Source: Bacteroidales bacterium (GTDB lineage: Bacteria; Bacteroidota; Bacteroidia; Bacteroidales; WCHB1-69). From it: a stretch of 64,000 nucleotides of DNA. Under the pieces are notes generated by a model. The model searched no databases. It was not told where the DNA came from and worked only from the letters and a program-made list of their open reading frames with translations. The stretch is from NCBI GenBank assembly GCA_024400635.1, contig JAKSMI010000001.1, forward strand, positions 629,534 to 693,533, given 5' to 3'. Every line of letters starts with the position of its first letter. Positions within the stretch are counted from its first letter, which is position 1. The translations under genes and the position numbers were made by a program. Of this stretch, positions 25,148-42,022 are shown one piece after another.

Positions 25148-25153
25148 GGTACA

Positions 25154-26326
25154 TTACTTTTGGGCAGGTTTGATGATGATTCTGGAAGCAACGCCATCTT
25201 CAAGATCAATAACGTGACGTACGCCATCCACCCAGTAGGCAGGCTTGATGCCTCCGTCAATGTCATAGAAACTTCCTACCAGATAAAGCTGGTTTTTGGA
25301 GTTGATTGACATATCAATAATAGAGCTGATGGTGTTGCCTTCTGGGTATCTATACATTGTTTGCGGCAGAACGCTGCCGTCTTTCATCACATAAAATCCT
25401 CCATAACAGGTGTCCATATATGGTTCATCAGTTATTGGATTTATTTCGTAGTGCTCATAATCTTCAGTTATTAAAGAATAGGTACTGCGGGTTCCTTCCG
25501 CTTCGGTTTTATTCCACTTGGAAGAATTGACTATTCCGTATGCTACGCTGAAATTTGAGTTTTCCCACTGATAAGGGATTCGAGTGCCTATGCCAGATTG
25601 ACTATCATATTCGTATGCCGTGTAGTTATCGTCTTCATCTAAATAATTACCAACGATTTTGAAATTGGCGCCATTGGTCAGTGTGCCGGAATAGATTTTT
25701 GCTGAAGCCCCATTCATGGGATCTACATTTACAAGTTGGCGATCTACCCACACTAATGGAACGTATTTGCCATCATAATTCAAATAGAAACCAACAATGA
25801 GTTCGTGACCATCCTCATAATCTATGGATGTAACATGCCATTCATTTATGTTGCTTTCACCAGTAAGAGGCAAATTTGTTGCGGTGGTGCCGTCCCACAC
25901 GGTAGGTCTGTATTTATCTGATAAATGTAAACCCGCAAGGACAATCTTACCATTGTCTTCTATGGCAATGCCGCCAAAAGAAGCGTAATCAAAATTATAT
26001 TCATAGCAAGGAACGCCGTTTTTGAATAGCAATGATGATGGAGACCCACCGAGCCCAAAACGTTTTACTTCTCCCACAACATAGAGGTCGCCATTGTCTG
26101 CCATCGCCATGTCAAGTGCACCAAATTTTCCTATATTATTGTCAAAGTAGCTTAGTTTGTCATTTGTCATGAGAAAGGATTCAGACCCGTAAGTTCCCAT
26201 GATATAGACAGTTTCTTCTGAGGTCGGTGTGTCCGGATCTTCTTTTTTGGGTTCGTCTTTTTTACAGGACATGAAAACCATCGACAGCAAGAGGCATGTC
26301 AAAGTAAATAATTTGATTTTTTTCAT
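25154..26326 (-). CDS. Lipoprotein with propeller-like repeats, paralogue 2
   Basis: 390 residues, collinear with its neighbour: the same lipobox (FMSC), the same repeats (LDMAMADNGDLYVVGEV, GKIVLAGLH, ELIVGFYLN, QLYLVGSFYDI) and the same C-terminus RIIIKPAQK. Differences are scattered single residues, concentrated in the repeat loops, which suggests duplication followed by divergence at a binding face (inference). First gene of the operon behind the box at 26445-26452. The 120-base leader shows nothing else. Confidence 0.8.
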   Translation of the reverse strand: MKKIKLFTLTCLLLSMVFMSCKKDEPKKEDPDTPTSEETVYIMGTYGSESFLMTNDKLSYFDNNIGKFGALDMAMADNGDLYVVGEVKRFGLGGSPSSLLFKNGVPCYEYNFDYASFGGIAIEDNGKIVLAGLHLSDKYRPTVWDGTTATNLPLTGESNINEWHVTSIDYEDGHELIVGFYLNYDGKYVPLVWVDRQLVNVDPMNGASAKIYSGTLTNGANFKIVGNYLDEDDNYTAYEYDSQSGIGTRIPYQWENSNFSVAYGIVNSSKWNKTEAEGTRSTYSLITEDYEHYEINPITDEPYMDTCYGGFYVMKDGSVLPQTMYRYPEGNTISSIIDMSINSKNQLYLVGSFYDIDGGIKPAYWVDGVRHVIDLEDGVASRIIIKPAQK

Positions 26327-26539: not shown

Positions 26540-29539
26540 TTATCTTTTCACGAATTTGACCTCGCTAACCGTTCCGTCAAGGTTGATAACGCGAACAAAA
26601 TGCAAACCAGAGGCAAGATTTTCGACAGAGATCATACAACGGTTCGGATCGGGCGTAGCGATTGTTTTCTGCAACTGACCAATAGCATTGAACACTTCAA
26701 TACGTTGCATATTGTTACCCGTGACGGTAATATACTTATCTGCTGGATTCGGATAAACAGTAATGTCATTCATTAAAGAATGCTCTTCCACCCCGACATT
26801 AAGAAAATGAACGTGGAAAGTCAAATAGTCTCCAAATTCCTGAATTTCGGTAATTTCAAAGCTGTTTTCCGGCGTTCCATCTGCCAAATAGGGATGAGGA
26901 TTCGTGGTGGGACCAAAAGCGGTTCGTCCCGCAAAGGCACTGAAGAAGGCATTATCAACATCGCCATTTACCGTATCACAACTACTTTCCGGACGGAAAA
27001 CCCAATACAAATGAAGAATGCTGTCGTTGTCAAAAAAGGCATTTGCGTGAATGTTTGCGGGCACGGCATTGTTCCAGCGGCCAATAATCAAGCCCGTTCC
27101 AGGTATGCCGTCATCAAACAAATCTTCCTTGTTCCGATACTCGAAAGTGTACCATTGGTCAGCATCTATGGCCGACTTAATGAAATAGCAGCTCTGTGAG
27201 GCACTCGTGGCATTGCTGTAAAGCGTATAGGTTCCATCCTCGGTGATTTGAATCGGGTCATCGGCCACGTGCAAAATCTTATTCTTATACATCATATTGG
27301 TTTGATTCATCACGCTGGAGACACTCATCACATCCCAACGACCAGACGGATTTACATTTTTAAAATTCGTATAATGATAATTGTCGGGAAGACCTAAAGA
27401 ATGCGACATTTCGTGACGGAACACATTGACATTAATTCCGTGGGTAGCAGAACCTTCAAACTCGAAATTGAAAGTATTGGGTAATTTTCCGTTAATGCTT
27501 ACAAGATGATCGATAGAATCTTGAGGGAAAAATTCCATGTGAGGCCATAAAAGAGATGCCCAGTTGCCAACATCTCCTTTGACTATAAAAGAAATATTGT
27601 CAATATAGCCGTCGCCATCACCATCCAAAGTAGCGTAATAGTTCACCAAGCCCATTGAACTAACATAATCGATAGCGGAAGCTAACAGTTGGGCTTCGCG
27701 CATAGAGATGCCTACCATCGGATTTTCTCCGTGATATCCAATAGGGTTCGTTTCGGAATACGGCTGATAATATCCACGAGGATGTTCATCCACGAATGAA
27801 ATGATTGAATTGTTTACAATCTGATCGGCGAATATGGTATTAAAATGAATTTTACCGTATGACGACACGTCAAAATAATTGTAAACGCTTGGATATCCAG
27901 GGATTTTGCAGTTAAACAAGCTGTCAATGGAATTGAACGGATAAGTGATTTCATCGTCATCGGCAAAGCGGATAAAAATCACTAAATTGGACATTGCCAA
28001 TTTGTTTGTATCAATAATCCAAAAATCAACTTCAGGGAAATTTAACGAGGGATATTCCATGGCACCTAAAGTAGAAGAACTATTAATATCAATGGTATCG
28101 TGGGCAAAATACATAACAGTGTAATAACTACCCACAGGCAAATTGACCGGAGCATCAAAGGAGTAATGCAAAGTATCGTGGGCGGGGATAATGAGATGCT
28201 GAACATCAACCCATTGAGCAAATTCTTGGGAAAGGTTTTCAATTGCCGCCTGACCCGCAAAAAAGTCAACAGCCACATCATTCGGATTGTAAATATCGAC
28301 ATGCCCGCGAAGATTGTCTCCCTTTTGAACGATAGTCGTGTCTAAAACCACGTCAGAACCCAAAATGGTGAAAAGCAAATCATCTTCATCGTAATCAGGA
28401 TAGAGATTTAAAATAGCTTCTTCAGAATGTGAAAAATTGTAATCATCGGGTGTTAAGGCAAACAGATTGAAGTAGCCATCGTCAGAGCCGCCCCAACCCC
28501 AATTGACGTGTACCATATCATCTTCATCATATCCATCCAAAATAAAAGCATGGCCACCAGGATAGGTGCCTTCATCGGCATCCCACAATGATTGTCCGAA
28601 ATATAATATAGGTTGATGAATGTCCAAATCATTTTTCATCAGTGCTAACCATTCGGCATCAGAATAATTATACCTTGATTCGTGCAATGAATGAACATTA
28701 TACTTGAAAAATTGGTTAAGCGCAAAATGAATGGCAAAAGTATTACCAGAAGTACTGGCATGGCAATCGCTATTATATTTTAGATTAGAGGCGATACCGC
28801 AATGATATTGCAAAAGCCCTACGGCATCACGCTGGACCTGCGTACTATTGCCATTCAATTGTGCCGGCATATTGTCCCAATCGTAAGTGCTTGATTCAAA
28901 ATCCGCACACAGGGTGTCATAGTGCCAGCAACCATAATTTTGGGTTATACAGTTTAATCCTCTTCCGTTGACAGGCCACTGCCAATAGTTCATCACTTGG
29001 GCTGCCGCCGTGGCAACGCAGCCGGTTGCAGGTCTGTATCCTGTTTGTGGCAAAGTTGAATCAACGGGAAGCATAGAATTATACCTCGTGCCATCGGCAG
29101 AGCATTGATTCCATTGTGTTTGGATGAGAGGCTCCACACTACGGGTATTGCGATGCGGAGTATGTGCGCTCACTTCGGCGCCTTCGGCTATCGCTTTCAA
29201 CTGTTCGTTGTATTTCTGCAACTGAGAGGCAAATCCCGGAGCCATATCATTTACATTGACTTCCCCGGTGATTGAATAACCCAAAACCGGCATTGTGCGA
29301 TCATCATCGCTCATAATCACAAACCCGCCACCTGGGAGATTATAAACGAACAGGTGGTCAAACGACGTATTCACTTTGGTGAGTTGCGCAGTACTTAGGG
29401 TGCCGCGAGTGTTTTCTATTTTGCTATTCATAAAACGAATGGCCTTTTGTCGAGCGGCATTGTCGTCAATGGGACCTGCCACAGATTTCTGCATCATAAA
29501 GATTGCACATAGAAACAATAAAAGATAGATTTTTTTCAT
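26540..29539 (-). CDS. Secreted double protease: C10 cysteine peptidase + M6-like metallopeptidase + T9SS domain
   Basis: 999 residues. Signal peptide (1-21), then a streptopain-type propeptide (ARQKAIRFMNSK; FVYNLPGGGFVIMSDDD). The C10 peptidase has Cys174 (ATGCVATAAAQVMNYW), His330 (PGGHAFILDGYD) and the NWGWGG block (Asn346). After a beta-rich linker (390-505) a second catalytic unit follows: a calcium-loop-like DGDGDGYIDN (639-648) and the zinc motif HEMSHSLGLPD (H709, E710, H713, D719), as in M6 proteases. The end is a T9SS type A domain (VYPNPADKYITVTG at 928 to KFVKR). All catalytic residues look intact in both units. It should be exported by type IX secretion. Confidence 0.87.
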   Translation of the reverse strand: MKKIYLLLFLCAIFMMQKSVAGPIDDNAARQKAIRFMNSKIENTRGTLSTAQLTKVNTSFDHLFVYNLPGGGFVIMSDDDRTMPVLGYSITGEVNVNDMAPGFASQLQKYNEQLKAIAEGAEVSAHTPHRNTRSVEPLIQTQWNQCSADGTRYNSMLPVDSTLPQTGYRPATGCVATAAAQVMNYWQWPVNGRGLNCITQNYGCWHYDTLCADFESSTYDWDNMPAQLNGNSTQVQRDAVGLLQYHCGIASNLKYNSDCHASTSGNTFAIHFALNQFFKYNVHSLHESRYNYSDAEWLALMKNDLDIHQPILYFGQSLWDADEGTYPGGHAFILDGYDEDDMVHVNWGWGGSDDGYFNLFALTPDDYNFSHSEEAILNLYPDYDEDDLLFTILGSDVVLDTTIVQKGDNLRGHVDIYNPNDVAVDFFAGQAAIENLSQEFAQWVDVQHLIIPAHDTLHYSFDAPVNLPVGSYYTVMYFAHDTIDINSSSTLGAMEYPSLNFPEVDFWIIDTNKLAMSNLVIFIRFADDDEITYPFNSIDSLFNCKIPGYPSVYNYFDVSSYGKIHFNTIFADQIVNNSIISFVDEHPRGYYQPYSETNPIGYHGENPMVGISMREAQLLASAIDYVSSMGLVNYYATLDGDGDGYIDNISFIVKGDVGNWASLLWPHMEFFPQDSIDHLVSINGKLPNTFNFEFEGSATHGINVNVFRHEMSHSLGLPDNYHYTNFKNVNPSGRWDVMSVSSVMNQTNMMYKNKILHVADDPIQITEDGTYTLYSNATSASQSCYFIKSAIDADQWYTFEYRNKEDLFDDGIPGTGLIIGRWNNAVPANIHANAFFDNDSILHLYWVFRPESSCDTVNGDVDNAFFSAFAGRTAFGPTTNPHPYLADGTPENSFEITEIQEFGDYLTFHVHFLNVGVEEHSLMNDITVYPNPADKYITVTGNNMQRIEVFNAIGQLQKTIATPDPNRCMISVENLASGLHFVRVINLDGTVSEVKFVKR

Positions 29540-29566: not shown

Positions 29567-30607
29567 TTATATTTCAGTTCGTTCTTGATTATCCAATCTA
29601 TATCTTTCTTTTTCAAGTTCGAGTTGCAGTTCTTCCTCGGTAGGCAATGTTAATTTATATTTTGAAGCAAATACCTGTTTGGCATCATTTAGAACAGAAT
29701 ATTTGGCAATGGCTTCATTCTTTTCCGAGCACAAAATTAGGCCTATGGTCGGATTATCGTCTGGTTGTTTCATCAAATCATCAAACATACGGATATAGCT
29801 ATCCATCTGCCCTACATCGCTGTGGGTCAATTTTCCCAGTTTCAAGTCTATCAACACATAGCATTTTAAAATACTGTTGTAAAACACCAGGTCGATGTAG
29901 AAATCATCCTCATCATAGCGCATTCTTTTCTGACGTGCCACAAAGCAAAATCCCTTTCCCAATTCCATCAGGAAATCCTGCAAATGACATATCAAAGCCT
30001 TTTCAACATCGGATTCGTGCAATGAAGGATAATCTTGCAAATTCAGAAAGTCCAAAACATACGGATCTTTTATAAATTCTAACGGAGAAACGGCAGACAT
30101 TTTCTCTTTTGCTTCTGCTACCACGGAAGACTTTTCCCGACTGGACAATAATCTTTCATAATATAATGTCGAAATCTGTCTGTCCAGTTGTCGTGTTGAC
30201 CAGACTTCATTAGCCGCTTCGTTCATGTACCAAAGCCTTGCGTCTTCTTTTTCAACACTCAGCAATCTGCGATAGTGACTCCAACTCAATTCGGGACGCA
30301 GTGTGTCCCGAATTGAAAAAGAACGATAAAATTGACACATTTTTCGAAGTTCTCTTTCATCAAATCCTTTCCCGAACTCTTTTGTAAGCTGTTGAGAAAG
30401 ATTTTTCAATACCTGTTTTCCGTACTCTGCACGTTCACATTTGAGTTCGTCTTCCGTAATCAAACGTCCGATTTCCCAGTATGCTGTTACCATGGCAAAA
30501 TTAACGGCACGATAAACCGCTTGCCTTGCCTGCAGCAAAACGCTGGAAATCGCAGCATACAATTGCTCATTTTTTTCTTCAGGTATAATATTGTCATTCA
30601 TAACCAT
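29567..30607 (-). CDS. DUF1016 / YhcG-like PDDEXK nuclease
   Basis: 346 residues from the Met at 30607, set by the promoter box 16 bases upstream; the Met at 30601 is equally possible. The N-terminal DUF1016 domain (about 10-165) has AYWEIGRLI, AEYGKQVLKNLSQQL, GFDERELRKMCQFY and LSWSHYRRLL. The C-terminal PDDEXK nuclease domain has DFYIDLVFYNSILKCYVLIDLKLG (split catalytic residues D, D, K) and ends TLPTEEELQLELEKE. YhcG-type proteins are linked to restriction loci and DNA ends; no partner is adjacent. A shorter paralogue lies at 35646-36149. Confidence 0.85.
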   Translation of the reverse strand: MVMNDNIIPEEKNEQLYAAISSVLLQARQAVYRAVNFAMVTAYWEIGRLITEDELKCERAEYGKQVLKNLSQQLTKEFGKGFDERELRKMCQFYRSFSIRDTLRPELSWSHYRRLLSVEKEDARLWYMNEAANEVWSTRQLDRQISTLYYERLLSSREKSSVVAEAKEKMSAVSPLEFIKDPYVLDFLNLQDYPSLHESDVEKALICHLQDFLMELGKGFCFVARQKRMRYDEDDFYIDLVFYNSILKCYVLIDLKLGKLTHSDVGQMDSYIRMFDDLMKQPDDNPTIGLILCSEKNEAIAKYSVLNDAKQVFASKYKLTLPTEEELQLELEKERYRLDNQERTEI

Positions 30608-30622
30608 TATGAAAATAGTTTG

Positions 30623-30630
30623 CAAAGGTA
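30623..30630 (-). promoter_or_regulatory. Putative -7 box for the DUF1016 nuclease
   Basis: The minus strand reads TACCTTTG followed by C, matching TAnnTTTG. Its position fixes the gene start at 30607/30601 and rules out the far upstream Met. Confidence 0.5.
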
Positions 30631-30651
30631 CAAAATATTTTACAACAAAAA

Positions 30652-30680
30652 AATCCCTCCCGTTTGCGGCGGGAGGGATT
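30652..30680 (-). terminator. Terminator after the frameshifted kinase-like gene
   Basis: AATCCCTCCCG / CGGGAGGGATT stem with a 7-base loop, then a run of seven T on the minus strand. Its stem sequence is identical to that at 31192-31222. Confidence 0.85.
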
Positions 30681-30683
30681 GTA

Positions 30684-31152
30684 TTACCTGAATTCAATTT
30701 CTGTTGTCAATGTTCTCACTCCCCCACAACACAGTTCGGGAGTATTAATTCTTATATCACAATCAAACACAAATATATTCCCTTCTTTAGAACGAATCAC
30801 ATTTTCGTCATGTAGGTCGCTCAGATATATCTCAGGCGTTGCAATTTGTTTTTCGTGCCCAGTGTTCGATTATTTGTTCTTGCGTCTTTGCGAATTGGCA
30901 TTCTCTTTTGAAATCGCCTGCGAATGAATGCGTTGGATTTGTTCCATCATTTGCTCCCGCGAGAATGGTTGCAATAACATTTGTAACACCTCCCGCTGCG
31001 CAGCCATACTGTTCGCACGATGAAAATCGTTTATAAACCAACTTCCGTTCAATAAATTGTTCTGCATAATGCTCTAAATTTGCCAATCCATCAGAAGAAA
31101 AATCTTCATCAATAATATGTTGAATTCTATTCCAAAAGATTGAATTTGTCAT
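30684..31152 (-). pseudogene. Kinase-like (polyvalent-protein type) gene broken by a +1 frameshift
   Basis: The 5' part starts at MTNSIFWNRIQHIIDEDF and includes SCEQYGCAAGGVTNVIATI. After HWARK the frame runs into a stop at 30832. The next frame continues the protein as TPEIYLSDLHDENVIRS, GNIFVFDCDIRINTPELC and ends at 30684. The span is 469 bases, i.e. 156 codons plus one base. Removing one A from the run of five (30849-30853, T on the + strand) restores a continuous reading with the DLHDEN catalytic-loop-like motif of kinase-like domains found in mobile-element polyvalent proteins. Recent decay, phase variation or a sequencing error could explain it. Confidence 0.7.
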
Positions 31153-31388: not shown

Positions 31389-32315
31389 TTATTTGATTAT
31401 TTGTTGGTAATTTACGTTGATTTTTTGGGAACAATATGCCTTTGCAACTTCCTTGGCTGCATCTATAGAGCGTTTTTGCAAGGATATTTCATCGTTATGT
31501 TGTTGCATCTTGAAATCCCAATCCCGTTTTTCTTTTTCGGAAAATTTGTTTTGGATGTCTGTTAACAATTTTTGTGCTTCTTCATAACAAAACATTGGCG
31601 GATTGATGTTCCCTAAATATTCTGCTGCTTCATAGTATTTTTGTACAGAATAAGATGCCCTTGCCTTTTGTAACAAATTATTGCATTGTTGTGCTTGATA
31701 TGATGAGTAAATATCGTCCACAACTTCCAACACATTATTGTAACAAGGAACCACAGTCGGTATAGACAATAGGATGGCCAATGATTCTTCGTAATATTCT
31801 TGTTTGGCGAGCATTTGTGCATCGGATATTATCTGTTTACAATACGTTTGGTAATAATTTAAAATATTTTGTTTACTATTGGCCATAAAGCTTTTGAAGA
31901 TTGTATCTGATGTGGAAATGTTCGCTATGGCATTTACAATGGCTTTTTCTTTTGTATCGCCCGCCCCTTTATATTTTTTTGAAATGGAGCCGACGGTTGC
32001 GCCATTTAACTGTTTTACGAACAGACTAAATTCAATCTTAACAGAATAAAGAGACTGCATCCCGCCCTCAATAACTTCTGTTTCATATAATTCAATAATG
32101 GGGTATAAGACGAAGCCCTGAGGGGAAACTCCTGTTTCTATACCATTTTGTGTACAGATGCGCTCAAGTTTCGTTTTGATTTTGCTCATTTGTGAAGCAT
32201 CCAATTCATTAGTTTGCTCTGGCACAACAACCCCTATATTGATTTCGCCGATGTTTTGTGCAAATGAAAGTTGCAGGCCCATCGTCAATATTATGATAAT
32301 CAATATTCTTTTCAT
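31389..32315 (-). CDS. Exported protein with LPP20/FlgT-like N-domain and helical repeats
   Basis: 308 residues with a signal peptide ending LSFAQ (residue 20). The N-terminal half (INIGVVVPEQTNELDASQM, KLERICTQNGIETG, EFSLFVKQLNGATVGSISKK, GDTKEKAIVNAI) has the alpha/beta pattern of envelope proteins such as FlgT and LPP20. The second half has TPR-like helical hairpins (YYEESLAILLSIP, YYEAAEYLGNINP) and a charged C-terminal helix. It is the last gene of a five-gene operon, 8 bases after its upstream neighbour. No family name recognised; periplasmic or outer-membrane location expected. Confidence 0.7.
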   Translation of the reverse strand: MKRILIIIILTMGLQLSFAQNIGEINIGVVVPEQTNELDASQMSKIKTKLERICTQNGIETGVSPQGFVLYPIIELYETEVIEGGMQSLYSVKIEFSLFVKQLNGATVGSISKKYKGAGDTKEKAIVNAIANISTSDTIFKSFMANSKQNILNYYQTYCKQIISDAQMLAKQEYYEESLAILLSIPTVVPCYNNVLEVVDDIYSSYQAQQCNNLLQKARASYSVQKYYEAAEYLGNINPPMFCYEEAQKLLTDIQNKFSEKEKRDWDFKMQQHNDEISLQKRSIDAAKEVAKAYCSQKINVNYQQIIK

Positions 32316-32323
32316 AAGAATGT

Positions 32324-33187
32324 TTATTTAATGGTTATATAAATCGTATTTCCTTTGATGTCTCTTCCTATTTGTAATCCTAAGGTTCGCATGAATTTGA
32401 AAATTTCAAGAGCAAATTTATTGGGATTGTAGTTGTTCCCAGTAGTGGAATCTTTGAGAGGAATACGGACATCGTCAAAAATCATTAGGTTGTCGCTTGT
32501 TCCCTGGATGTGATAATTGTTTTTGTGTGCGTTGGCTTCCATCCATAATTCTATTTCATCACTGAGTAATAATCCTTGTGTGCCAATTTCCGACGACATA
32601 GTATATTCGGATTCGCTGTCGAAGCCAAAATTGATGATGACGGATTTCCCATTTTCAACAATATCATTGAATTTCAATTGCATTGTGTTCAGAAAATCTT
32701 CGGCAATGCTTTCAATGGCTTTGCTTGTGAGTTTCCCAATATCGTCAGTATAAAATTTGCCACTTTCTCCAACTTTGTTTGACAAAGAGTTTCCGGTTGA
32801 ACATTCGTATGCAGTAACGACAGTTTTGACGGAATTTCCTGTGGCGGATAAAAGAATATCGACTTCGGCTTCTACATATATATCCGCTCCTGAATTTTGA
32901 ATAATCATTGATTTCAAATCGCTTTTGTTATCGTCAACAAAAGTGGCATCAGACTTTGCGGCTTTTAATTTAGCAGTAAAGTCAATGGTGGTAAAACCTC
33001 TGGAGTCGAAAGCTTCTTTGATTTTAGTAAGGGCAATTCGTTTATTTACATCATTTTCCAAAATGGTGCGGATGTCTTCTCCATCTTTGGTATAAGGAAT
33101 GACCATGATTTTGGGCTGTACGGTTTGTTGCGCGAACAGTGAAATCCCTAAAATAATTCCTATTAAGGTTGCTATTAAACGTTTCAT
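32324..33187 (-). CDS. Exported DUF6175-like protein
   Basis: 287 residues, signal peptide ending SLFAQ. The start of the mature protein, KIMVIPYTKDGEDIRTILEN then VNKRIALTKIKEAFDSRGF, matches from memory the Bacteroidota family DUF6175. It resembles CsgG/TolB-N domains, which also begin with a IAVxPF-like strand and a helix. SGADIYVEAEVDI forms the next strand. A second domain (about 185-287) ends GRDIKGNTIYITIK. Function unknown. It is co-transcribed with a CsgG-like and an LPP20-like gene. Confidence 0.7.
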   Translation of the reverse strand: MKRLIATLIGIILGISLFAQQTVQPKIMVIPYTKDGEDIRTILENDVNKRIALTKIKEAFDSRGFTTIDFTAKLKAAKSDATFVDDNKSDLKSMIIQNSGADIYVEAEVDILLSATGNSVKTVVTAYECSTGNSLSNKVGESGKFYTDDIGKLTSKAIESIAEDFLNTMQLKFNDIVENGKSVIINFGFDSESEYTMSSEIGTQGLLLSDEIELWMEANAHKNNYHIQGTSDNLMIFDDVRIPLKDSTTGNNYNPNKFALEIFKFMRTLGLQIGRDIKGNTIYITIK

Positions 33188-33200
33188 TTTCCAAATTTAA

Positions 33201-33662
33201 TTAAAGGCCAAATTTTCTTATTATGCCGTTTTGTTCTAAATCAGTTCGCAAGGCACGCAAGTTTATTGATACATCAACAGAAATACTTTTTTGTCCACCT
33301 CCGCCTTTGACGTGGTGGATTTTTGTTGTCGGGATGCTGGAAATAATAAAAGTCTTATACCGCTTCTCTTCCAACAATTCATCAAAGTATTTTTTATTGT
33401 TTTTTCGTGCATCGTTTTCATTGATGTTTACTAAGGGGTCTTTTAATTGCGAATCGGGAATGCCTCTGAATAAAATGGCTTCAACGGCATATTTTTCAGC
33501 GTCAGTAATGGCGGTTAATTCATTTTGACCGAATCCATCACAACGCAAATTTATTGTTTGAGAATCTTCGGATATATAATTGACGCTGTGGGTCAAGTAA
33601 GATGTCCGGCACGATGTCATCCCGCATAATAATAGTATGAAAATGTAGAGCCCTTTTTTCAT
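33201..33662 (-). CDS. Small LPP20-like lipoprotein
   Basis: 153 residues with an SPII signal (lipobox MTSC, Cys18). The mature part TINLRCDGFGQNELTAITDA, EKYAVEAILFRGIPDSQL resembles the LPP20 fold (strand, then a helix with regularly spaced Ala). A Gly-rich turn VKGGGGQKS precedes the last strand. The start overlaps the stop of the CsgG-like gene by 4 bases (ATGA), a sign of coupled translation. Likely on the periplasmic side of the outer membrane; partner proteins are presumably its operon neighbours. Confidence 0.7.
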   Translation of the reverse strand: MKKGLYIFILLLCGMTSCRTSYLTHSVNYISEDSQTINLRCDGFGQNELTAITDAEKYAVEAILFRGIPDSQLKDPLVNINENDARKNNKKYFDELLEEKRYKTFIISSIPTTKIHHVKGGGGQKSISVDVSINLRALRTDLEQNGIIRKFGL

Positions 33663-34486
33663 TTTATAATCATTTTACAGTTAATATTTTGGGCGGCATT
33701 AAATCGAGAAAGAATTCCGCTACCGCCTTTCTTTACCACGCATTCGGCAAAATCGTTTCCTGACAATTTGGAAACTTTTAACAAGCCTATTTCTTGTGGG
33801 TACGGATTCCCGTCAAGAATTTCGATATATTCCACGGAAAATTCATCTCCTTCTTTAATTCCACTTGATTTTCCTCCATTGATAAGCACCAATGCCGCAC
33901 CATTCTTTTTAATTTCCAAAACTTTTAAAATTTTTGTATTGATTGGAAACGTGCGGATAAAATAGTCATATAATGCCTGTTCAACTGATTGCAATGCCTG
34001 ATTTACGGCTTGTTCTTTTGACGCAGCCAATGGACTCACTTCTGTTTGAAAACTTTCAGCGGCAGTTGTGTTGCCTGTTTCCACATTATTGACTTTTAAT
34101 GTAAAAGCACAGCTCGCTTTGTATCCGGTTATAACGCCATTGTTTTTCATAGTATAGACGTTCATTTTAATGATATGACCCAAGATAAGATATTCTGCTG
34201 CAATGGCTTCACCTTGGTTGACGGTGTTTTTGCTGTCTAAGAATGCTTCTGTTTTTTGAAATTCAAGTTCTTCTTGAATCTTGTCATAACTTGTTCTGTC
34301 AACCACAATGAAACGTTTGGTTTGCGTAACCATAGTTACAACTTTTTCCTCAACAGAAGCGCAAAAGGGAGATTCTACTTCGGAAGTGAATTTTGCGACC
34401 CCTACAACTGACCTGCCGTTGTCGTTTTGTGTGTAGCCTAAAAGACTGCACACAAACAACAACGATAAAAGAATATATTTCTTCAT
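33659..34486 (-). CDS. CsgG/LpoB-like exported protein
   Basis: 275 residues starting at MKKYILLSLLFVCSLLG, 4 bases after the preceding stop; the longer in-frame start would run into that gene. The signal peptide ends GYTQ without a lipobox Cys. The CsgG-family domain is clear: VVGVAKFTSEVESPF, MVTQTKRFIVVDRTSYDKIQ, GEAIAAEYLILGHI. A C-terminal module of ~90 residues (VLEIKKNGAALVLINGGKSS then GIKEGDEFSVEYIEI) looks like a small beta barrel, as in FlgT. CsgG itself forms the curli pore, while LpoB relatives activate peptidoglycan synthases. The lack of a lipid anchor argues against a curli-type pore. Confidence 0.78.
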   Translation of the reverse strand: MKKYILLSLLFVCSLLGYTQNDNGRSVVGVAKFTSEVESPFCASVEEKVVTMVTQTKRFIVVDRTSYDKIQEELEFQKTEAFLDSKNTVNQGEAIAAEYLILGHIIKMNVYTMKNNGVITGYKASCAFTLKVNNVETGNTTAAESFQTEVSPLAASKEQAVNQALQSVEQALYDYFIRTFPINTKILKVLEIKKNGAALVLINGGKSSGIKEGDEFSVEYIEILDGNPYPQEIGLLKVSKLSGNDFAECVVKKGGSGILSRFNAAQNINCKMIIK

Positions 34487-34490
34487 ATTC

Positions 34491-35084
34491 CTATAGGTTT
34501 TTGGCAGCTTTGCAAGATTCAATGAGGTTTTGCAGAAGTTTTACATCTTGTTTCAACTTAGTAGTGGTTACAGGAAGCGCATTAGTCGCCCAATTTGCAG
34601 CTTTGATTGTAGCTGCAGCAGTCATAGGATTCAAACCTTTAACATCATTTTGTACTCCTTGCAATTTGTCTGCTGCCTCAACGGCCTGTTGAACTGCTGT
34701 AATCAAATTAGGCAACATTTTCACGTAGTCATCTAACGATGGAGTGAATTTGTCAATATTAACCTCTCCATCAGCACTTTCATTAATGGATATTTTATAT
34801 TCTTGCAATACCTTTTCGGCAGCAATCAATGTGTTTAATAAACTTGCGTCTGTTGCAACCAACCCATCAACGGAGTTCAGTCCTGTATTTGAAGGTTGCC
34901 CTTGTACGACGCCGCTAACTACTATTTTGGTATATTTATCTTCTATTTTTTTGTTATCTTTAGAGGTTAATTCGGACTTCAATGCTTGACGTTCAGCCTT
35001 TAATTCGTCCTTTGTTTTTGCTGTTTGTGAAAATGAAGTCGATACAATAAATAAAGCCATAATGGCAACAATGATTTTTTTCAT
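34491..35084 (-). CDS. Small exported Ala/Lys-rich helical protein, unknown
   Basis: 197 residues, signal peptide ending STSFSQ. A short coiled-coil-like segment follows (KDELKAERQALKSELTSKD), then a loop region and long amphipathic helices (LPNLITAVQQAVEAADKLQG; TTKLKQDVKLLQNLIESC). First gene of the five-gene operon, 4 bases before the CsgG-like start. I do not recognise the family. Its position suggests a secreted substrate or periplasmic partner of the operon (inference). Confidence 0.65.
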   Translation of the reverse strand: MKKIIVAIMALFIVSTSFSQTAKTKDELKAERQALKSELTSKDNKKIEDKYTKIVVSGVVQGQPSNTGLNSVDGLVATDASLLNTLIAAEKVLQEYKISINESADGEVNIDKFTPSLDDYVKMLPNLITAVQQAVEAADKLQGVQNDVKGLNPMTAAATIKAANWATNALPVTTTKLKQDVKLLQNLIESCKAAKNL

Positions 35085-35198
35085 AGTATGTTATTTTTAT
35101 AAACTGCTACTCTTTTTCTCGGCTTTTCGCATCTGCCAAGTGCCGCAAGAAAGATGAGACTCATACATAAAAACAGCGTGGCACTTATTTCGCTTTAT

Positions 35199-35333
35199 TT
35201 GTTAATCTGAGGATTTCTGGACTACCTATAACTAACCAAATTCTACGAGCAAAGCCCACGCTATTGCGTGAGCGTTAATTGAGCTTGCTCTTGGTTAGTT
35301 AATGCTAAAAGTGTCCAGTTTTCAGATTAACAA
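35199..35333. repeat. 135-bp nested inverted repeat in the leader of the CsgG-like operon
   Basis: Stems nest from outside in: TTGTTAATCTGA (35199-35210) with TCAGATTAACAA (35322-35333), CTGGAC with GTCCAG, TAACTAACCAA (35229-35239) with TTGGTTAGTTA (35291-35301), GAGCAA with TTGCTC, and CACGC-TATT-GCGTG at the tip. A separate 7-bp pair AAGTGCC/GGCACTT (35138, 35180) is adjacent. No ORF of note lies in 35085-35645. It could be an RNA leader, an ncRNA or a small mobile palindrome. Confidence 0.7.
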
Positions 35334-35445
35334 GTTTCAGCTTCTATAACGCTATTTTCTATTTCAAGATGTATGCAGTGCGACTGCGTTTATACCATAG
35401 GCTAAATTATTTTATTAAACTTATATTTGAGTTTTTTTACGTCTG

Positions 35446-35453
35446 CAAAAGTA
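35446..35453 (-). promoter_or_regulatory. Putative -7 box for the CsgG-like operon
   Basis: The minus strand reads TACTTTTG followed by C, matching TAnnTTTG. If used, the mRNA leader would be ~350 bases and contain the whole nested inverted repeat. Confidence 0.4.
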
Positions 35454-35645: not shown

Positions 35646-36149
35646 TTATCTTTTATTCAATAGTAATTGTTGCAATTGTTCTTTGCTTGGTAAAATAGTC
35701 GCATATTGGGCTGCAAAGATCTGGTTGTTGTTCTCAATCGCTTCTATTTCGTAAAAGCGTCGTTCCTCAGGATTGGAAATGCGCATCAGTTTCAAGTAGT
35801 GTGACCAAGATAGCATAAAGGCTGAATTACGAGACACTGTCTCGTAATTTGAATAACACAAATAGAAATTCCTCATATTCTGAAGGTTATCCACCGAAAA
35901 CCCTTTCCCGAACTTAGGCGTAAGGTAAGCCGATAACTTTTTCAATACGCTCTTGCCGTATTCCGCACGATTTTGCCCATTTTGCTCATCCTCAACAATA
36001 TATCTACCAATTTCGTAATAGGTATAGACCATAGCGGTATTGACAGTCGAAACAATGCGCTGCCGTGCCTCTTGAATCAATCCTTCAATTTTGATGGCAA
36101 GGTCATTGATGCTGCTGTTTTCAATAATATGGGTGTTCTTTTCTTCCAT
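35646..36149 (-). pseudogene. DUF1016 protein lacking its nuclease domain (internal deletion)
   Basis: 167 residues. Residues 1-140 are a normal DUF1016 N-terminal domain (AMVYTYYEIGRYIVEDEQ, AEYGKSVLKKLSAYL, MLSWSHYLKLM). The last 25 (NNQIFAAQYATILPSKEQLQ) match the extreme C-terminus of full-length YhcG proteins (compare QVFASKYKLTLPTEEELQ in the copy at 29567). About 180 residues with the PDDEXK catalytic core are missing at an in-frame joint near residue 140. The product could still be made, for example as a binding-only protein, but as a nuclease it is dead. The interval 36150-36355 shows no gene. Confidence 0.75.
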
Positions 36150-36944: not shown

Positions 36945-38474
36945 TCAGTTCTCTTTGGATATTTCAGCATACAGTGCCAGTCCTTTTTCTGTAAGATAAT
37001 AGGCTTGGTCTCGGCGTTTGGGAGCTTCAGGATAAAGGCTTCTAACAAAACCGAAATCGATAGATGGATGCAGATAACGCTTTCGGAAATTATCTTCACC
37101 TTTTAATTGCATTATTTCCATTATTTCACGGGCAGTCTTCGTATCACCACGAATAGCCAAAACTATTCTTGATATCTTTTTATTGACAAGAAGTTCAACT
37201 TCGCTCTTTTCTGTACCTCTTTCTGTACCTCTTTCTGTACCTCTTTCTTCACCTCTTTCTTGTACTTCTAGTCGCCAAAGAACAACCCGAAAATCATCAT
37301 CTTGGTGAAACTCTGGTTTACGGAGTCCATATTCTAAACAGTGGTCAATAATATCGGTAGTTCCTGTTCCCATTTGTTCTATATAGCCGGAAAGATAAAC
37401 GGGATTGGCAAGAACGGGATTGACAGGATTGGAATTGTGTTCTTTGGTCAATTTTGCGATAGTCATTCCTTGTGGCAGTTTACCGGGGTTCCATACTTCC
37501 AAGCGGTCTTTGAACAACATCACCTGCACACTGCCGTTACTTGTATAGTTGCGGTGAACAACCGCATTAACAATGGCTTCGGTCACGGCCTGTGCCGGCA
37601 GCTCGGGTGTGACATCCACTTGTGCGGAATGAGTGCGTTCACCCACGTGTTGGTCTATGCGGCTCATCACAAAACCAACCGCCATATCTACCATCTCGAA
37701 AACGGAACCTCCGTATATCTGCTGTGAGATGATAGGCTTTTGGATTTTAGTTCCATAGAAATGAGCGCATTTGACAGTGGCGGAGACAAACCACTTTTGA
37801 ACATCCTTGGCAAATAGCAGAAGAGCGGCATTCTTGAGTTTGTCGTCCTCCGTTATCAGATGCAGGCTAAGGAGAATCTGACGAATGTTTTCCTCCGAGT
37901 ATTGCAGAGGGAATTGCCTTTTTTCGCGAGCCATCCCCACGAACCACTTTATCTTGTTCTTATCCAAATCGTCAATGCTCGCCTCTGGATGAGCGGAAGC
38001 ATCAAAAGGTGCATTACGGAGAATTTGATTCGAGGTCATATATTCTATCAACGAGGCGTAAACACCGCCCTGCAATTCTTCGTATGAACGGAATGTGTTG
38101 CGGATAACGGAGTTATCAATCTTCTGCTTAAAGGCTTCTTCTTTTGCTTCCCGTTCAGATATGTCCTTGATGAAGGCTATTCTGTAAGCATGATGAGCGG
38201 TGGCAGCGTTATATTCTCGTTCAGTTGGAGATATCCCTTCAGCGTCCATGTAACCGTATCGTTTACCTAAGAGCAGAAGATAAATCTCAGCCTTGGACGC
38301 TTGTTCAAGATAGGCAATTTGGGCGGACTTGTCCTGAGCAGGCAATTCCTCAAACAGGAAAGGTTCAAAACACATCGAAAACAATGCATCTTGACGAATA
38401 TAATCCGCTATCTGCCTGCGTTCTTTCGCAAATTCATTCTGTACACTGCTGATAAATATTTTGATGCGGTTCAT
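36945..38474 (-). CDS. DUF4062 + AlbA/HATPase-type regulator-like protein
   Basis: 509 residues. The N-terminal DUF4062 domain (1-~90) is typical: KIFISSVQNEFAKERRQIAD, PAQDKSAQIAYLEQ, YLLLLGKRYGYMD. The middle and C-terminal parts match ATP-binding putative transcriptional regulators of the RecG-like/AlbA_2 kind: AVTEAIVNAVVHRNY, DRLEVWNPGKLPQGMT and GYIEQMGTGTTDII. An ERGT tetrapeptide repeat (about residues 404-420) precedes a C-terminal winged-helix-like region. DUF4062 proteins often sit in defence loci, as here. The protein looks intact, unlike its downstream neighbours. Confidence 0.8.
   Translation of the reverse strand: MNRIKIFISSVQNEFAKERRQIADYIRQDALFSMCFEPFLFEELPAQDKSAQIAYLEQASKAEIYLLLLGKRYGYMDAEGISPTEREYNAATAHHAYRIAFIKDISEREAKEEAFKQKIDNSVIRNTFRSYEELQGGVYASLIEYMTSNQILRNAPFDASAHPEASIDDLDKNKIKWFVGMAREKRQFPLQYSEENIRQILLSLHLITEDDKLKNAALLLFAKDVQKWFVSATVKCAHFYGTKIQKPIISQQIYGGSVFEMVDMAVGFVMSRIDQHVGERTHSAQVDVTPELPAQAVTEAIVNAVVHRNYTSNGSVQVMLFKDRLEVWNPGKLPQGMTIAKLTKEHNSNPVNPVLANPVYLSGYIEQMGTGTTDIIDHCLEYGLRKPEFHQDDDFRVVLWRLEVQERGEERGTERGTERGTEKSEVELLVNKKISRIVLAIRGDTKTAREIMEIMQLKGEDNFRKRYLHPSIDFGFVRSLYPEAPKRRDQAYYLTEKGLALYAEISKEN
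37207..37262. repeat. 12-bp tandem repeat inside the DUF4062 gene
   Basis: The + strand shows CTTTCTGTACCT repeated three times, flanked by one diverged unit on each side. The gene reads it as repeated Glu-Arg-Gly-Thr. Units are 12 bases, so slippage keeps the frame and would change linker length only. Confidence 0.85.
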
Positions 38475-38512
38475 TTGTTATTTCAAAAAGATAATTCCAG
38501 CCGCAAAAATAC

Positions 38513-38712
38513 TCATTTTTGGAATGTGAAAAACGAATATCTGAAAAAATAGGGAGGGCTTACCTCTTCATCCTTTCCAACTTGTTTTTCCACTTTTTTC
38601 CAATGTGGCATCTCATTGGTCAACAACGCATAAAACTCTTTGGTGTGATTTAGATGTACCAAATGACAAAGTTCATGGGTAATGACGTATTCAATTGGAG
38701 TTGTATGATGAA
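38513..38712 (-). pseudogene. C-terminal remnant of a DUF45 (YgjP-type) metallopeptidase
   Basis: The minus strand reads TPIEYVITHELCHLVHLNHT, then KEFYALLTNEMPHWKKVEKQ, and ends in TGA. HELCH followed by H is the zinc site of the DUF45/YgjP family. A stop lies just upstream in the frame and the N-terminal two-thirds are missing, so this is a truncated relic at a rearrangement joint next to the wbuC promoter. Confidence 0.75.
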
Positions 38713-38773
38713 TATCTTATCTCAAAGAGGACAAATATTTTAGGGAGAATAGTGACAGAATGAGAAAAATTTT

Positions 38774-38781
38774 TATTTTTG
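38774..38781 (+). promoter_or_regulatory. Putative -7 box for wbuC-KAP
   Basis: TATTTTTG followed by C matches TAnnTTTG. It lies downstream of the earliest in-frame Met at 38760, so the real start must be later (38817). Confidence 0.5.
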
Positions 38782-38816
38782 CCGATTGTATGACACGAAA
38801 TAAGGGGAAGACTATT

Positions 38817-39221
38817 ATGTTGATAGACAATGAGATACTTGATAGTTTGACCGCCCGGGCCCAAGCATCGCCCCGGCTGCGGATGAATCTGAACTTTCAT
38901 CAGAGTCTGGATGAAAAGTGCCACCGTTTTCTGAATGCCGTGGAACCGGGTGCCAACATCCCCATTCATCGCCATCCGGAGAAAGAGGAGTCATTTGTTG
39001 TGTTGCGTGGCAGGATACGTGTCATCACCTACAACGACGACGGCACCATCATCGAAAACATGGTTCTTAACCCATCGGAAGGCCGCTACGGCGTGAACGT
39101 GGGAAAGAATGTCTGGCACACCGTGGAAGCCCTAGAGCCGGGTTCCGTCATCTTCGAGTGCAAGGAAGGTCCGTATGTGGAGCATGAGGAGGAAGGGATA
39201 TTGGAGGTATCGAAGAAATGA
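38817..39221 (+). CDS. WbuC-type cupin metalloprotein
   Basis: 134 residues from the ATG at 38817, which has AGGGGAAG just upstream and lies behind the promoter-like box. It is a cupin barrel with the metal site H51, H53, E57/E58 (HRHPEKEESFVVLRGR) and H101 (KNVWHTVEAL). WbuC proteins are usually tied to O-antigen or LPS clusters, with unclear chemistry. The last 4 bases overlap the KAP NTPase start (ATGA). Confidence 0.82.
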   Translation: MLIDNEILDSLTARAQASPRLRMNLNFHQSLDEKCHRFLNAVEPGANIPIHRHPEKEESFVVLRGRIRVITYNDDGTIIENMVLNPSEGRYGVNVGKNVWHTVEALEPGSVIFECKEGPYVEHEEEGILEVSKK

Positions 39222-41212
39222 ATGTTTTTAGTGCCTTTAGAAAGTTCGTTAGACTATTGCTTATACCAAAAATTGTGAAAGAAGAAGAGATAAAAGAAGC
39301 CAAAGTAATGAAGAGTTTGAATGAATTGATTTATGATTTTCTGACAGAATACGCAAACAATCCTGACCCTCAGTATGCAGTGATGCTGAAGGGGAAATGG
39401 GGGTGTGGAAAAACGCATTTTATCAAACAATGGCTAAAAGAGTATAAAGAGAAAAATGGGGAAATAGAAGAGGACACCATAGATCTGAAACCTATATATG
39501 TGTCACTCTATGGCATGAATACAATTGCCGAAATCAAAACCGCAATAGACCGTGAGGTTAATCCTTTCTTTTACTCAAAAACGGGTAAGGTGGTGAAAGG
39601 AGTGGCAAAGGTACTTGGGAAGGTGGTTTTGAAAACAAATATTGATTTCAATGGAGACGAAAAAGACGATGCCACATTTACTGGTTCGATAGATTCGCTG
39701 TCGTTGTTCAAAAAGAATAACGAAGACGTTGTAAAAGGAGTCCGCTTTATTGTTTTTGATGACATTGAGAGATGTCAGATTGAGATGAAACAACTATTGG
39801 GATTCATCAATTATTTTGTAGAGCATTGTGATTGTAAGGTGCTTGTGATAGGAGACGAATCTCATTTGGAAGAAGAGAGTAAAAAATGTTTGGATGAATT
39901 CAAGGAAAAAACGGTTGGGAGAGAATTCGAGATAAAGCCTGATGATGAAAAGGCTATAGATTTCTTTTTGCACGAACCACATATTGCAGGTTATTTGGAG
40001 GTTGAAAGAGATTATATCTTAAAATGTTTCCGTAAATCCGAGAGTGGGAACCTGAGAGTCTTGCGACAGTGCTTGATGGATTTTGCCTCCCAAATAAAAG
40101 GAATTGAAACAGGGACAGAAGGCGAAAGCAACCTCTTTCTTCATGGTTTATTATGTAGTTTTATTGCAGTATATGCAGAACTAAACAATCCAAAAACCCA
40201 AAAATATATAGAGGATTTTTTGAATTTCATTCAAAATGCGGTTGGTAATCTTGGAAGCGAGGAAGGTAAGGCTTTTAAAAATCTTAATCTGAAGTACTAT
40301 GAGGTAAGTTTGGGTAACATATATAATGTGTTTACGACTGAATATGTGCCTCGGATAGTTAAACACATAAGAACAGGCGCACCTCTAACTGATTTCATTA
40401 GAGGAAATATTAAAACGAAACGTAGAGAGCAAGCTTCGTGGGAAAAATTATCAAAGTTTTGGGAAATGGAAAACGACCAATTTAATTCTCTATATGATGA
40501 TTCGTTGAAGGCTCTAGTGGAGGATAAAATTGACTTGCCTTACCATATTGGTACCACTATAGGATATCTTGGTTATATAGATGTTTATGGTGTCAGGTCG
40601 TTTGAATCTGATGATGTGAAAAAAGTCAAGAAAAACATTGACAAGAGGATAGAGAACTGCAAAACTTTAGAAGGTTTATTTCAATTTAGAAACAGCATCA
40701 TACAAGGTGTTAAATATATAACAATGAATTGCGATTCGTGTCCCAAAGCAGACAATATTCTTTCGTCAATGCAGAAATTTTTCGAGTGTCAGAAAGTGAA
40801 ATTGCCAGATGCAATGCAAGAAGCATTACGAGGGCTTACTGACGAGACTGTTTCGCAATTGCTGGATATTGATGATAAGAGTTACCCTGACCATAGTTGC
40901 GCCTACCGATTAAGAGCCATATTTGGGCAAGAAAACGGCGAGGAATTGTTTGAAAGAATATGTAAACTCTCAAATAAAGGGAAAAACATATTCTGCTCTT
41001 TCCTTTCGAAGCATTATATGTTTTCAGCAAACATTCAAGGGGTAGTTGATTATTATAAATCAGACGTACCGGTGTTAATTGTTTTGAAGGGGAAAATTGA
41101 TGACCAAAAGCAAAAAGCCATTGGTGTTGATAAGATGGCTTACGATAGACTGGGAGATGCCTTAGACAAGGCATTGAAAAGATGCAATGGCGAAAACGCA
41201 GCGTTAGTATAA
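39218..41212 (+). CDS. KAP-family P-loop NTPase
   Basis: 664 residues. Walker A GKWGCGKTH at 59-67, Walker B FIVFDDIERC at 177-186, then the sensor region (KVLVIGDESHLEEESK) and ESGNLRVLRQCLMDF, which mark the KAP branch of STAND-like NTPases. The C-terminal ~350 residues are helical and unassigned. A weakly hydrophobic N-terminus (FVRLLLIPKIV) might touch the membrane. KAP NTPases occur in phage and plasmid defence. Coupled to wbuC by a 4-base overlap. A start at residue 31 (MKSLNELIYDF) is also possible. Confidence 0.8.
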   Translation: MNVFSAFRKFVRLLLIPKIVKEEEIKEAKVMKSLNELIYDFLTEYANNPDPQYAVMLKGKWGCGKTHFIKQWLKEYKEKNGEIEEDTIDLKPIYVSLYGMNTIAEIKTAIDREVNPFFYSKTGKVVKGVAKVLGKVVLKTNIDFNGDEKDDATFTGSIDSLSLFKKNNEDVVKGVRFIVFDDIERCQIEMKQLLGFINYFVEHCDCKVLVIGDESHLEEESKKCLDEFKEKTVGREFEIKPDDEKAIDFFLHEPHIAGYLEVERDYILKCFRKSESGNLRVLRQCLMDFASQIKGIETGTEGESNLFLHGLLCSFIAVYAELNNPKTQKYIEDFLNFIQNAVGNLGSEEGKAFKNLNLKYYEVSLGNIYNVFTTEYVPRIVKHIRTGAPLTDFIRGNIKTKRREQASWEKLSKFWEMENDQFNSLYDDSLKALVEDKIDLPYHIGTTIGYLGYIDVYGVRSFESDDVKKVKKNIDKRIENCKTLEGLFQFRNSIIQGVKYITMNCDSCPKADNILSSMQKFFECQKVKLPDAMQEALRGLTDETVSQLLDIDDKSYPDHSCAYRLRAIFGQENGEELFERICKLSNKGKNIFCSFLSKHYMFSANIQGVVDYYKSDVPVLIVLKGKIDDQKQKAIGVDKMAYDRLGDALDKALKRCNGENAALV

Positions 41213-41219
41213 CTTATTT

Positions 41220-41540
41220 TCAGATAACGTGATTTTTCTGGTTTTCGTAGGTGTGCTTGTAATTTAGGAATTGTTGGAAGCATTGGGAATATTTTAGTTC
41301 GATGGTCACCTCTATTGCTTTCTTTGTGTCTTCCGGGAAACCCATAAACAATATCTTTGCCTTGTTTTTGGTCTGAGCCTTTTCGCATTCTACACCACGA
41401 TGAATGTCCTCGTTGGAAAACGGATAGTACTGACCTCAACGCATAGCACTCACGAAATTGCATAAACGCGAATAACTGTCAGATGTGTTTCCTGCGATGA
41501 AGCCGTTCTGGAATAGTTCGAATATGTCTTTTTCGTTCAT
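41220..41540 (-). pseudogene. Unknown small gene interrupted by an in-frame TGA
   Basis: Starts MNEKDIFELFQNGFIAGNTS and reaches TGA at 41436-41438 after 34 codons. The same frame then stays open for 71 more codons (GQYYPFSNEDIHRGVECEKA, ILFMGFPEDTKKAIEVTIEL) to a TGA at 41220. The tail looks protein-like, so a nonsense mutation in a ~106-codon gene is likely. Family unknown. It faces the KAP gene tail to tail. Confidence 0.45.
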
Positions 41541-41555
41541 GCTTATTGACTTTCC

Positions 41556-41640
41556 TTAAATCATGTTGGAGTAAACCTCGATATCGTATGCCCAGTCGTC
41601 GCCGCCGAAGATCCACTGTCTCTTCTTGATAAGGCTAATG
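41556..41640 (-). pseudogene. Fossil fragment of a nifJ (pyruvate:ferredoxin oxidoreductase) gene
   Basis: The minus strand encodes LIKKRQWIFGGDDWAYDIEV then YSN, against [20 protein letters not shown] and later TEVYSN in the intact nifJ at 46292-49849. Twenty-two residues between the two blocks are deleted. The DNA at 41587-41619 is also clearly similar to the intact gene. A minute relic on the same strand as nifJ, on the far side of the restriction-modification operon. Confidence 0.65.
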
Positions 41641-41650
41641 TTGATGGCTT

Positions 41651-42019
41651 TCACAAATTTAAGCCAATCTCAAAATCTGGGAGAAATGCAGGAGGAATTG
41701 TTGAACGAACAGATGCAATATTTTGTCTATAGCCAATAACAAAATTATGGTCAGCACGGAGATTCTCCACAAACTCATTGCAGTTTACTCGTCTCCAAAT
41801 ATTACCCACTCCAGCAGTCAGTGATAAGTGAAAAATATCGGGAATTTGAGTGAACAGCTGTATTCTGCCCTCGCTTGCCCATGCTCCTTGTTCTTCATTG
41901 TGTTCCCAAACAATGGATGAACTTCCATCAGATTTGGCCAGATATCCTATCAACTGATAGTATTCATTTTCGTTATTAAATTGGACTTGTCCATTTGAAC
42001 CAAAACTACTTCTGTACAT
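41651..42019 (-). CDS. Small protein of the restriction-modification operon, unknown
   Basis: 122 residues starting MYRSSFGSNGQVQFNNENEY, with aromatic and polar strands (YQLIGYLAKSDGSSSIVWEH) and no recognisable catalytic motif. It begins 3 bases after the HNH endonuclease stop and is the last gene of the three-gene operon. It could be an endonuclease subunit, a specificity helper or an unrelated passenger. Its end abuts the nifJ fossil. Confidence 0.6.
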   Translation of the reverse strand: MYRSSFGSNGQVQFNNENEYYQLIGYLAKSDGSSSIVWEHNEEQGAWASEGRIQLFTQIPDIFHLSLTAGVGNIWRRVNCNEFVENLRADHNFVIGYRQNIASVRSTIPPAFLPDFEIGLNL

Positions 42020-42022
42020 AAC

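Follow-up and report, generated by a model that had tools for sequence, protein, structure and literature searches.

The proteins PelC, CsgG and FlgT/FlgO/FlgP build rings at the outer membrane. As to the Bacteroidota, which are major gut and environmental bacteria, few cis-regulatory RNAs are, to our knowledge, known in this phylum. The locus considered here is situated in a stretch of 64,000 nucleotides (nt) from a Bacteroidales bacterium (GenBank assembly GCA_024400635.1, contig JAKSMI010000001.1, positions 629,534 to 693,533; hereafter the window, to whose first letter all positions refer) and consists of a five-gene operon (genes A to E) and a structured leader RNA, designated X, lying directly upstream of it. 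X is the more novel feature of the two and was absent from the preliminary description of this DNA. The order of the genes is conserved, the structure of the RNA covaries, and in many genomes X has a promoter-like element before it and the operon behind it. We read the locus as a transcription unit of patchy distribution, probably spread by horizontal transfer, that would encode an outer-membrane-associated periplasmic assembly behind the cis-regulatory leader X, and estimate the probability of this reading at about one half, the ring or scaffold and the cis action of X being taken loosely together.

X comprises approximately 135-240 nt (about 160 model positions) and six helices, and its parts follow one another from 5' to 3' as P2, internal loop, P3, P4, P5, the apical hairpin P6, a tail and a U-run. 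In the window the following elements were delimited:

35446-35453, minus strand: putative -7 promoter element of the Bacteroidota type, TACTTTTG (TAnnTTTG), upstream of X, assigned from its sequence
35155-35380, minus strand: leader RNA X with flanking stretches (covariance-model match 35171-35335)
35322-35333, minus strand: 5' strand of P2, TTGTTAATCTGA, pairing with 35199-35210
35313-35318, minus strand: 5' strand of P3, CTGGAC, pairing with 35217-35222
35256-35261, minus strand: internal strand, GCGTGG, with two possible partners, the local CACGC (35266-35270) and the tail
35217-35222, minus strand: 3' strand of P3, GTCCAG
35199-35210, minus strand: 3' strand of P2, TCAGATTAACAA
35169-35181, minus strand: tail, CCACGC followed by the U-run, CCACGCTGTTTTT, with the internal strand as its partner

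The 400-nt leader of the operon folds with a z score of -4.2; the values for three leaders of the same genome were -4.2, -6.5 and -7.5, and for a Bacteroides leader -7.8. A DNA search of this genome revealed two further copies of X before other genes of exported proteins, with compensatory changes in the main helices. A helix descriptor composed of P2, an internal loop (AA or AAA opposite NCC) and P3 scored at least 11.5 in 29 of 79 operon leaders, one of these (L058; L numbers designate loci) being a spurious local match in a leader where X is nevertheless present according to the covariance model. Scores of at least 11 were reached in 14 of 2172 other sequence windows, and scores of at least 14 in about 25 of the 79 leaders as compared with none of the 2172. 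Since the descriptor was drawn from several of the tested leaders, the covariance models serve as the independent tests. The first of them, R1, for which only the three copies of the window genome were used, detects leaders of distant operons with E values of 1e-10 to 1e-6 (L071, 1.5e-10; L018; L006; L008; L017, 1.9e-6; and others), and the second, R2, built from 13 copies, extends the set of X leaders further. In 55 matches from loci outside R2, aligned by fitting to the model, which somewhat favours structure, and including one antisense echo (L150, plus strand), 93.9% of the cells are paired, as against 36-46% when slid; two-sided changes are found at 43 of 45 base pairs, levels of pairing and covariation that none of the shuffles attains. 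P2 varies in nearly all copies (46 different strands in 54) with its pairing retained, the extension of P3 is conserved (ACUU pairing with AGGU), and the 3' strand of P6 reads GCGTGGGC in many copies. Antisense matches on X itself, for example 35197-35357 on the plus strand of the window, were discarded as echoes of a near-palindrome.

None of the Rfam 15 covariance models matched X. Thus X is, as far as Rfam is concerned, a new family among the structured leader RNAs, which as such are a known kind; the motifs of earlier surveys that stand outside Rfam (PMC2864571, PMC8040213) were not compared. Among the motifs in PMC2864571 some are listed without an Rfam number, GUCCY-hairpin being an example, and the candidates in PMC8040213 run into thousands, so that X may have been sighted earlier without receiving a name. 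A search for 6S-Flavo gave no match in any of the genomes searched and, for this reason, has no bearing on the identity of X.

The searches for X covered relatives of the window genome. X was found no more than about 420 nt before the first gene of the operon in approximately 35 of the 69 loci with enough upstream sequence, a count which takes in three loci recognized by the descriptor only and two in which the start of the first gene was called too early, and which leaves out far-upstream matches with an intervening gene (L002, L003); in some of these loci, such as L006, a small open reading frame (ORF) may stand between X and the operon. X is by no means confined to the operon: it occurs in 42 of 59 genomes of the family, in up to 20 copies per genome (seven in the window genome), and, under strict filters, in at least 14 of 158 genomes across the phylum. 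At 33 of the 36 sites examined the first gene begins within 200 nt of X, with a spacing of 44-172 nt to the start codon and a median of 89 nt, and 29 of these 33 genes encode a signal peptide by a crude test, the baseline being 43%. Among the products encoded behind X are lipoproteins and surface proteins with sorting domains; in L147 a CsgG-type gene is the second one, and in L165 another DUF6175 operon follows. The motif TAnnTTTG is present 25-170 nt upstream in 49 of 58 copies of X, as compared with 28 of 290 shuffles. In L089 (7730-8090) two small exported genes that follow X are each preceded by a short repeated leader motif of the ACCGAYGTGCCGATGGGATAACTGGCA type, which is possibly another leader element.

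These positional data bear on the alternative that X is a noncoding RNA in its own right, be it a trans-acting small RNA (sRNA), a 6S-like RNA or a scaffold RNA. It would then be transcribed from a promoter of its own and end at the U-run, and the genes that follow would be mere neighbours. The promoter-like element, the U-run and the long hairpin with internal loops would all suit such an RNA, and multicopy structured sRNAs do exist in Bacteroidota: the FopS RNAs of Bacteroides are multicopy and trans-acting (PMC11697453). However, FopS RNAs are single hairpins of only 65-70 nt, unlike the much larger, six-helix X, while X keeps a constant orientation and the above spacing to the start codon in front of many gene families, and in L057, L058 and L080 it lies at most 5 nt from the called start of the operon. 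We consider an independent RNA unlikely, and hold that X probably acts in cis on the genes downstream of it.

As to the manner of this action, the tail offers some grounds for prediction. The tail, of the CCACGC type, and the U-run are mostly located 13-34 nt past P2, and the best partner of the tail falls in the region of the P6 strand in 65 of 67 copies. The tail and internal strands form 38 different sequence pairs (for instance, AATCGTGAGC/GCTCACGATT, AAGTGGAGC/GCTCCACTT and AAGCGTGGGTACTGT/ACAGTACCCACGCTT), and compared with shuffled tails the pairing has p<=0.05 in 44 of the 67 copies and p<=0.2 in 65; in the window copy, none of 200 shuffled tails pairs as well as the real one. P6 and the long-range helix of the tail with the internal strand are mutually exclusive. 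Our working hypothesis, a tentative one, is that X is an attenuator or a riboswitch-like switch. In this case the promoter would yield a leader transcript containing X; with P6 closed, that is, with the GCGTGG strand held in the local hairpin, transcription would read through, whereas pairing of this strand with the tail beside the U-run would favour termination, the choice being set by a signal.

The operon itself is made up of five ORFs on the same strand at 31389-35084, the coordinates of which were confirmed in the window:

34491-35084, minus strand: gene A, 197 amino acids; exported, probably mainly helical; the least conserved of the five
33659-34486, minus strand: gene B, 275 amino acids counted from the ATG; LpoB/CsgG-type (FlgT-M-like) domain and a weak FlgT-C-like end
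33201-33662, minus strand: gene C, 153 amino acids; small lipoprotein with lipobox MTSC; no known family
32324-33187, minus strand: gene D, 287 amino acids; DUF6175; predicted N-terminal domain of the PelC/CsgG/FlgT-M type (residues 22-175) and predicted C-terminal alpha/beta domain
31389-32315, minus strand: gene E, 308 amino acids; predicted N-terminal domain of the HpaA/LptE/FlgT-M type and predicted BamD-like TPR part

The start of gene B was taken to be the ATG, although the ORF list has a TTG start further upstream. The preliminary description had pointed out the short gaps or overlaps between the five genes and an export signal on every product, and both features are real: the intergenic distances are 4 (A/B), -4 (B/C, an ATGA overlap), 13 (C/D) and 8 (D/E) bases, A, B, D and E carry signal peptides without a lipobox (ending in SFSQ, GYTQ, LFAQ and SFAQ, respectively), and C alone possesses a lipobox. 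It was also correct in that the CsgG-like protein has no lipid anchor, as the signal peptide of B ends in LLGYTQ with no lipobox cysteine at the cleavage site. It had matched the operon to no described system; our literature search likewise found no published system of this kind, nor any paper on DUF6175 or the DUF805 RNA.

With gene D as the query, 80 loci were retrieved from contigs representing one genome per species, and their gene order was scored with profiles of the A-E families built on the same loci. The order A-B-C-D-E is found in about 40 of them, B-C-D-E in 13, A-B-D-E in 10 and C-D-E-B' in about 13, B' being usually much longer; gene A is missing from some loci. The loci belong to Bacteroidales, Flavobacteriales, Sphingobacteriales, Chitinophagales, Cytophagales and other groups. 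The recurrence of the five genes together, proposed earlier as a check, is thus observed, and the arrangement is far beyond chance, because the gene order repeats across the phylum. As the loci were selected through D, B-like genes may also occur independently elsewhere. No family of flanking genes was found in more than four of the 80 loci, in line with the earlier remark that no curli genes are nearby. At the same time the operon is a rare, patchy unit, and close relatives mostly lack the block: matches to the D profile above 500 bits were obtained in one of seven genomes of the genus, two of 59 of the family and two of 158 of the phylum. Horizontal spread is probably the simplest reading of this patchiness, short of proof by the tree of D, in which three label changes are needed for Bacteroidales. 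Carriage of the operon as phage or plasmid cargo was considered and rejected, the search having yielded no phage record, no viral contig and one distant plasmid homologue.

Three of the five proteins, B, D and E, have a CsgG/PelC/FlgT-M-type domain in common, as judged from the sequence of B and from predicted models of D and E. B exceeds the Pfam cut-off of LpoB (PF13036; 28.2 bits, E 2e-6) and, barely, that of CsgG (PF03783; 21.6 bits at a cut-off of 20.8, E 1.5e-4), and both families are matched in 39 of 41 relatives of B at E<=0.1. The domain described earlier as clear CsgG therefore does pass the cut-off, but by a small margin, and LpoB/FlgT-M-like is a better label for it. The C-terminal end of B remains below the cut-off of FlgT_C (PF16538; 15.6 bits versus 27), which is matched in 16 of the 41 relatives at E<=0.1 (best E 8e-4). 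D does belong to DUF6175, as had been surmised (PF19672; 271.9 bits at a cut-off of 23, E 7e-81). In its AlphaFold model (predicted local distance difference test (pLDDT) score 86) the N-terminal domain resembles PelC (Z 11.0 over 118 residues, 2.6 A), CsgG (Z 10.2) and FlgT (Z 8.9), and Foldseek with this model retrieved the LPHT ring (4e-6) and FlgT (8e-6). The N-terminal domain of the E model (pLDDT 84) resembles an HpaA homologue (Z 8.8) and FlgT (Z 8.5), the FlgT domain matched by both D and E being the middle one (3w1e), and residues 158-280 of E resemble BamD (Z 6.9-7.0); relatives of E give repeat-type Pfam matches. The predicted fold of E is less certain than that of D, because its Z scores approach a level reachable by unrelated models; it is supported by the fact that nearly all the leading matches belong to one fold group. 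Profile-profile comparison of B, D and E gave weak similarities (44-60%), partly driven by the signal peptides, so the fold assignment was decided by the structure models; a sequence search of solved structures gave nothing useful. Pfam scans of A, C and E yielded nothing significant, and further family searches with A gave no significant family either. C had been taken for an LPP20-like protein, which we reject: LPP20 (PF02169) matches neither C nor 38 of its relatives nor anything in the window genome, and the C profile compared with one LPP20 protein gave a probability of 2.7%. The domain of the CsgG/TolB-N/FlgT-M type surmised earlier is supported for B, D and E. By analogy with the known ring proteins, the exported products B, D and E may well assemble into a ring or scaffold at the outer membrane; C, as their lipid-anchored partner, and the TPR part of E would serve as anchors or adaptors.

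Alternatively, the operon could be an Lpo-like system, in which B and its partners would activate peptidoglycan synthases instead of forming a ring. The best Pfam match of B is indeed LpoB; however, B lacks a lipid anchor and fails the NCBIfam LpoB equivalog TIGR02722 (28.5 bits against a cut-off of 110.55), and the patchy distribution is ill-suited to a basic cell-wall factor, which makes this explanation quite improbable. Even less credit can be given to the idea that the operon encodes a channel of the curli or PelB/C type that secretes a fibre or polysaccharide: the domain of D is nearest to PelC and CsgG, but genes for export, synthase or fibre do not recur beside the operon, and the CsgG match of B spans only positions 39-153 of the 210 in the profile. 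That X acts at the level of DNA, such as a mobile repeat or recombination target would, and folds only incidentally is the least credible of all, for although there are many copies per genome, several of those in the window genome lie near insertion-sequence transposases or a contig start and the DNA strand folds too (z -4.1), the diversity of P2 strands with retained pairing is unlike that of recently copied repeats, and the orientation of X is fixed relative to genes and promoter.

Our reading of a ring- or scaffold-encoding operon behind a cis-acting X has difficulties of its own. About half of the operons have no X, and some copies of X stand before genes of non-exported products (glycosyltransferase, DNA methyltransferase, restriction-type and KilA-N-like). 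With about 75 nt enclosed, the helix of tail and internal strand would differ from an ordinary terminator, and it may be a pseudoknot instead. The fold shared by B, D and E is also known in proteins that form no rings, LptE and HpaA. The broadest version, by which X would be a new phylum-wide class of signal-sensing RNA switches for a regulon of accessory envelope and exported-protein genes and the operon an undescribed outer-membrane ring complex, seems to us rather doubtful. Anyway, the operon brings known protein folds together in a new combination, and it demonstrates that a set of envelope proteins of the CsgG/PelC/FlgT type can move as a unit unaccompanied by flagellar, curli or Pel genes, while X, being large, multicopy and strongly conserved in structure, makes the control of surface and secreted proteins in Bacteroidota directly testable.

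As for the surroundings of the operon in the window, they hold several PADLOC candidates: YhcG/DUF1016 (PDC-S02), a KAP ATPase (PDC-S49) and a type II restriction enzyme. A YhcG/DUF1016 nuclease gene lies on either side of the operon, one complete (29567-30697) and one shortened (35646-36149), both on the minus strand, the latter copy seemingly without its middle part, as if internally deleted, and the region 36945-43210, with a DUF4062/ATPase gene, the KAP ATPase and the restriction enzyme, is a defence-type neighbourhood. Placement in defence islands was rejected as a general rule, since the 50 nearest and 50 distant flanking genes differ little: the 41 versus 9 overlapping models amount to a handful of proteins versus two or three, and no family matches more than one member among the nearest or the distant genes. 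On the minus strand at 26540-29539 there is a gene for an exported protein of 999 amino acids that joins a C10 peptidase domain to its propeptide-type inhibitor domain; the protein also has a type IX secretion sorting tail and matches M6 peptidases weakly. At 23972-26326, also on the minus strand, there is a tandem of closely similar lipoproteins of 391 and 390 amino acids, a recent duplication.

Among the known envelope systems, the H-ring or LPHT ring proteins FlgT/FlgO/FlgP of polar flagella are approached by B, with its FlgT M-like and weak C-like domains, and by the FlgT-middle-like domains predicted for D and E; unlike them, the operon has no recurring motility genes, its C fails the test for LPP20 (FlgP), E has an additional TPR part and D is a DUF6175 protein. 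The ring proteins PelC and CsgG are resembled by the predicted N-terminal domain of D, whereas B, D and E of the window have no lipid anchor, and Pel or curli genes do not recur beside the operon. LpoB is similar to B at the level of the Pfam family, but B falls far short of the equivalog cut-off and carries one more domain at its C-terminal end. The same Pfam family as D is found in DUF6175 loci with true LPP20 lipoproteins adjoining, e.g. in Bacteroides finegoldii (NZ_OY725910.1); these related loci, in which DUF6175 is accompanied by E-like genes or LPP20 lipoproteins (L165 of a relative, L186, and L087, a second, distant locus of the window genome with an E-like gene), have different partners and stand apart on a distant branch, the identity for L186 being about 33%.

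The closest RNA counterparts of X by position are the DUF805 and DUF805b RNAs (RF03081/RF02914), one of which lies directly upstream of the operon, above the Rfam threshold, in at least 11 loci (L009, L013, L017, L019, L020, L021, L029, L030, L035, L036 and L041), being separated from it in L013 by an ORF of 68 codons. The window has a weak candidate:

35107-35138, minus strand: DUF805b-like element immediately before gene A; 12 bits, under the Rfam gathering score of 35.6 (RF02914)

This element stands in the expected position and contains the core GAAAAGCC...AAAAGAGTAG. X and DUF805b-like elements share a gene cluster in L183 (563-1366) and in L184 (583-1364), where they precede different genes. 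In L185 (2008-3486) an ion-channel-like gene is flanked by a DUF805b-like element on either side; these two elements come before small proteins, none of them obviously exported. In structure the DUF805/DUF805b RNAs are unrelated to X and smaller, with 68 or 35 positions as against about 160. Like X, they are structured leaders, and in other Bacteroidota they occupy the position of X in front of this operon; in L017 and, with a weak DUF805b-like element, in the window they stand in tandem with X. The orphan DUF805 RNA thereby gains a recurring set of target genes.

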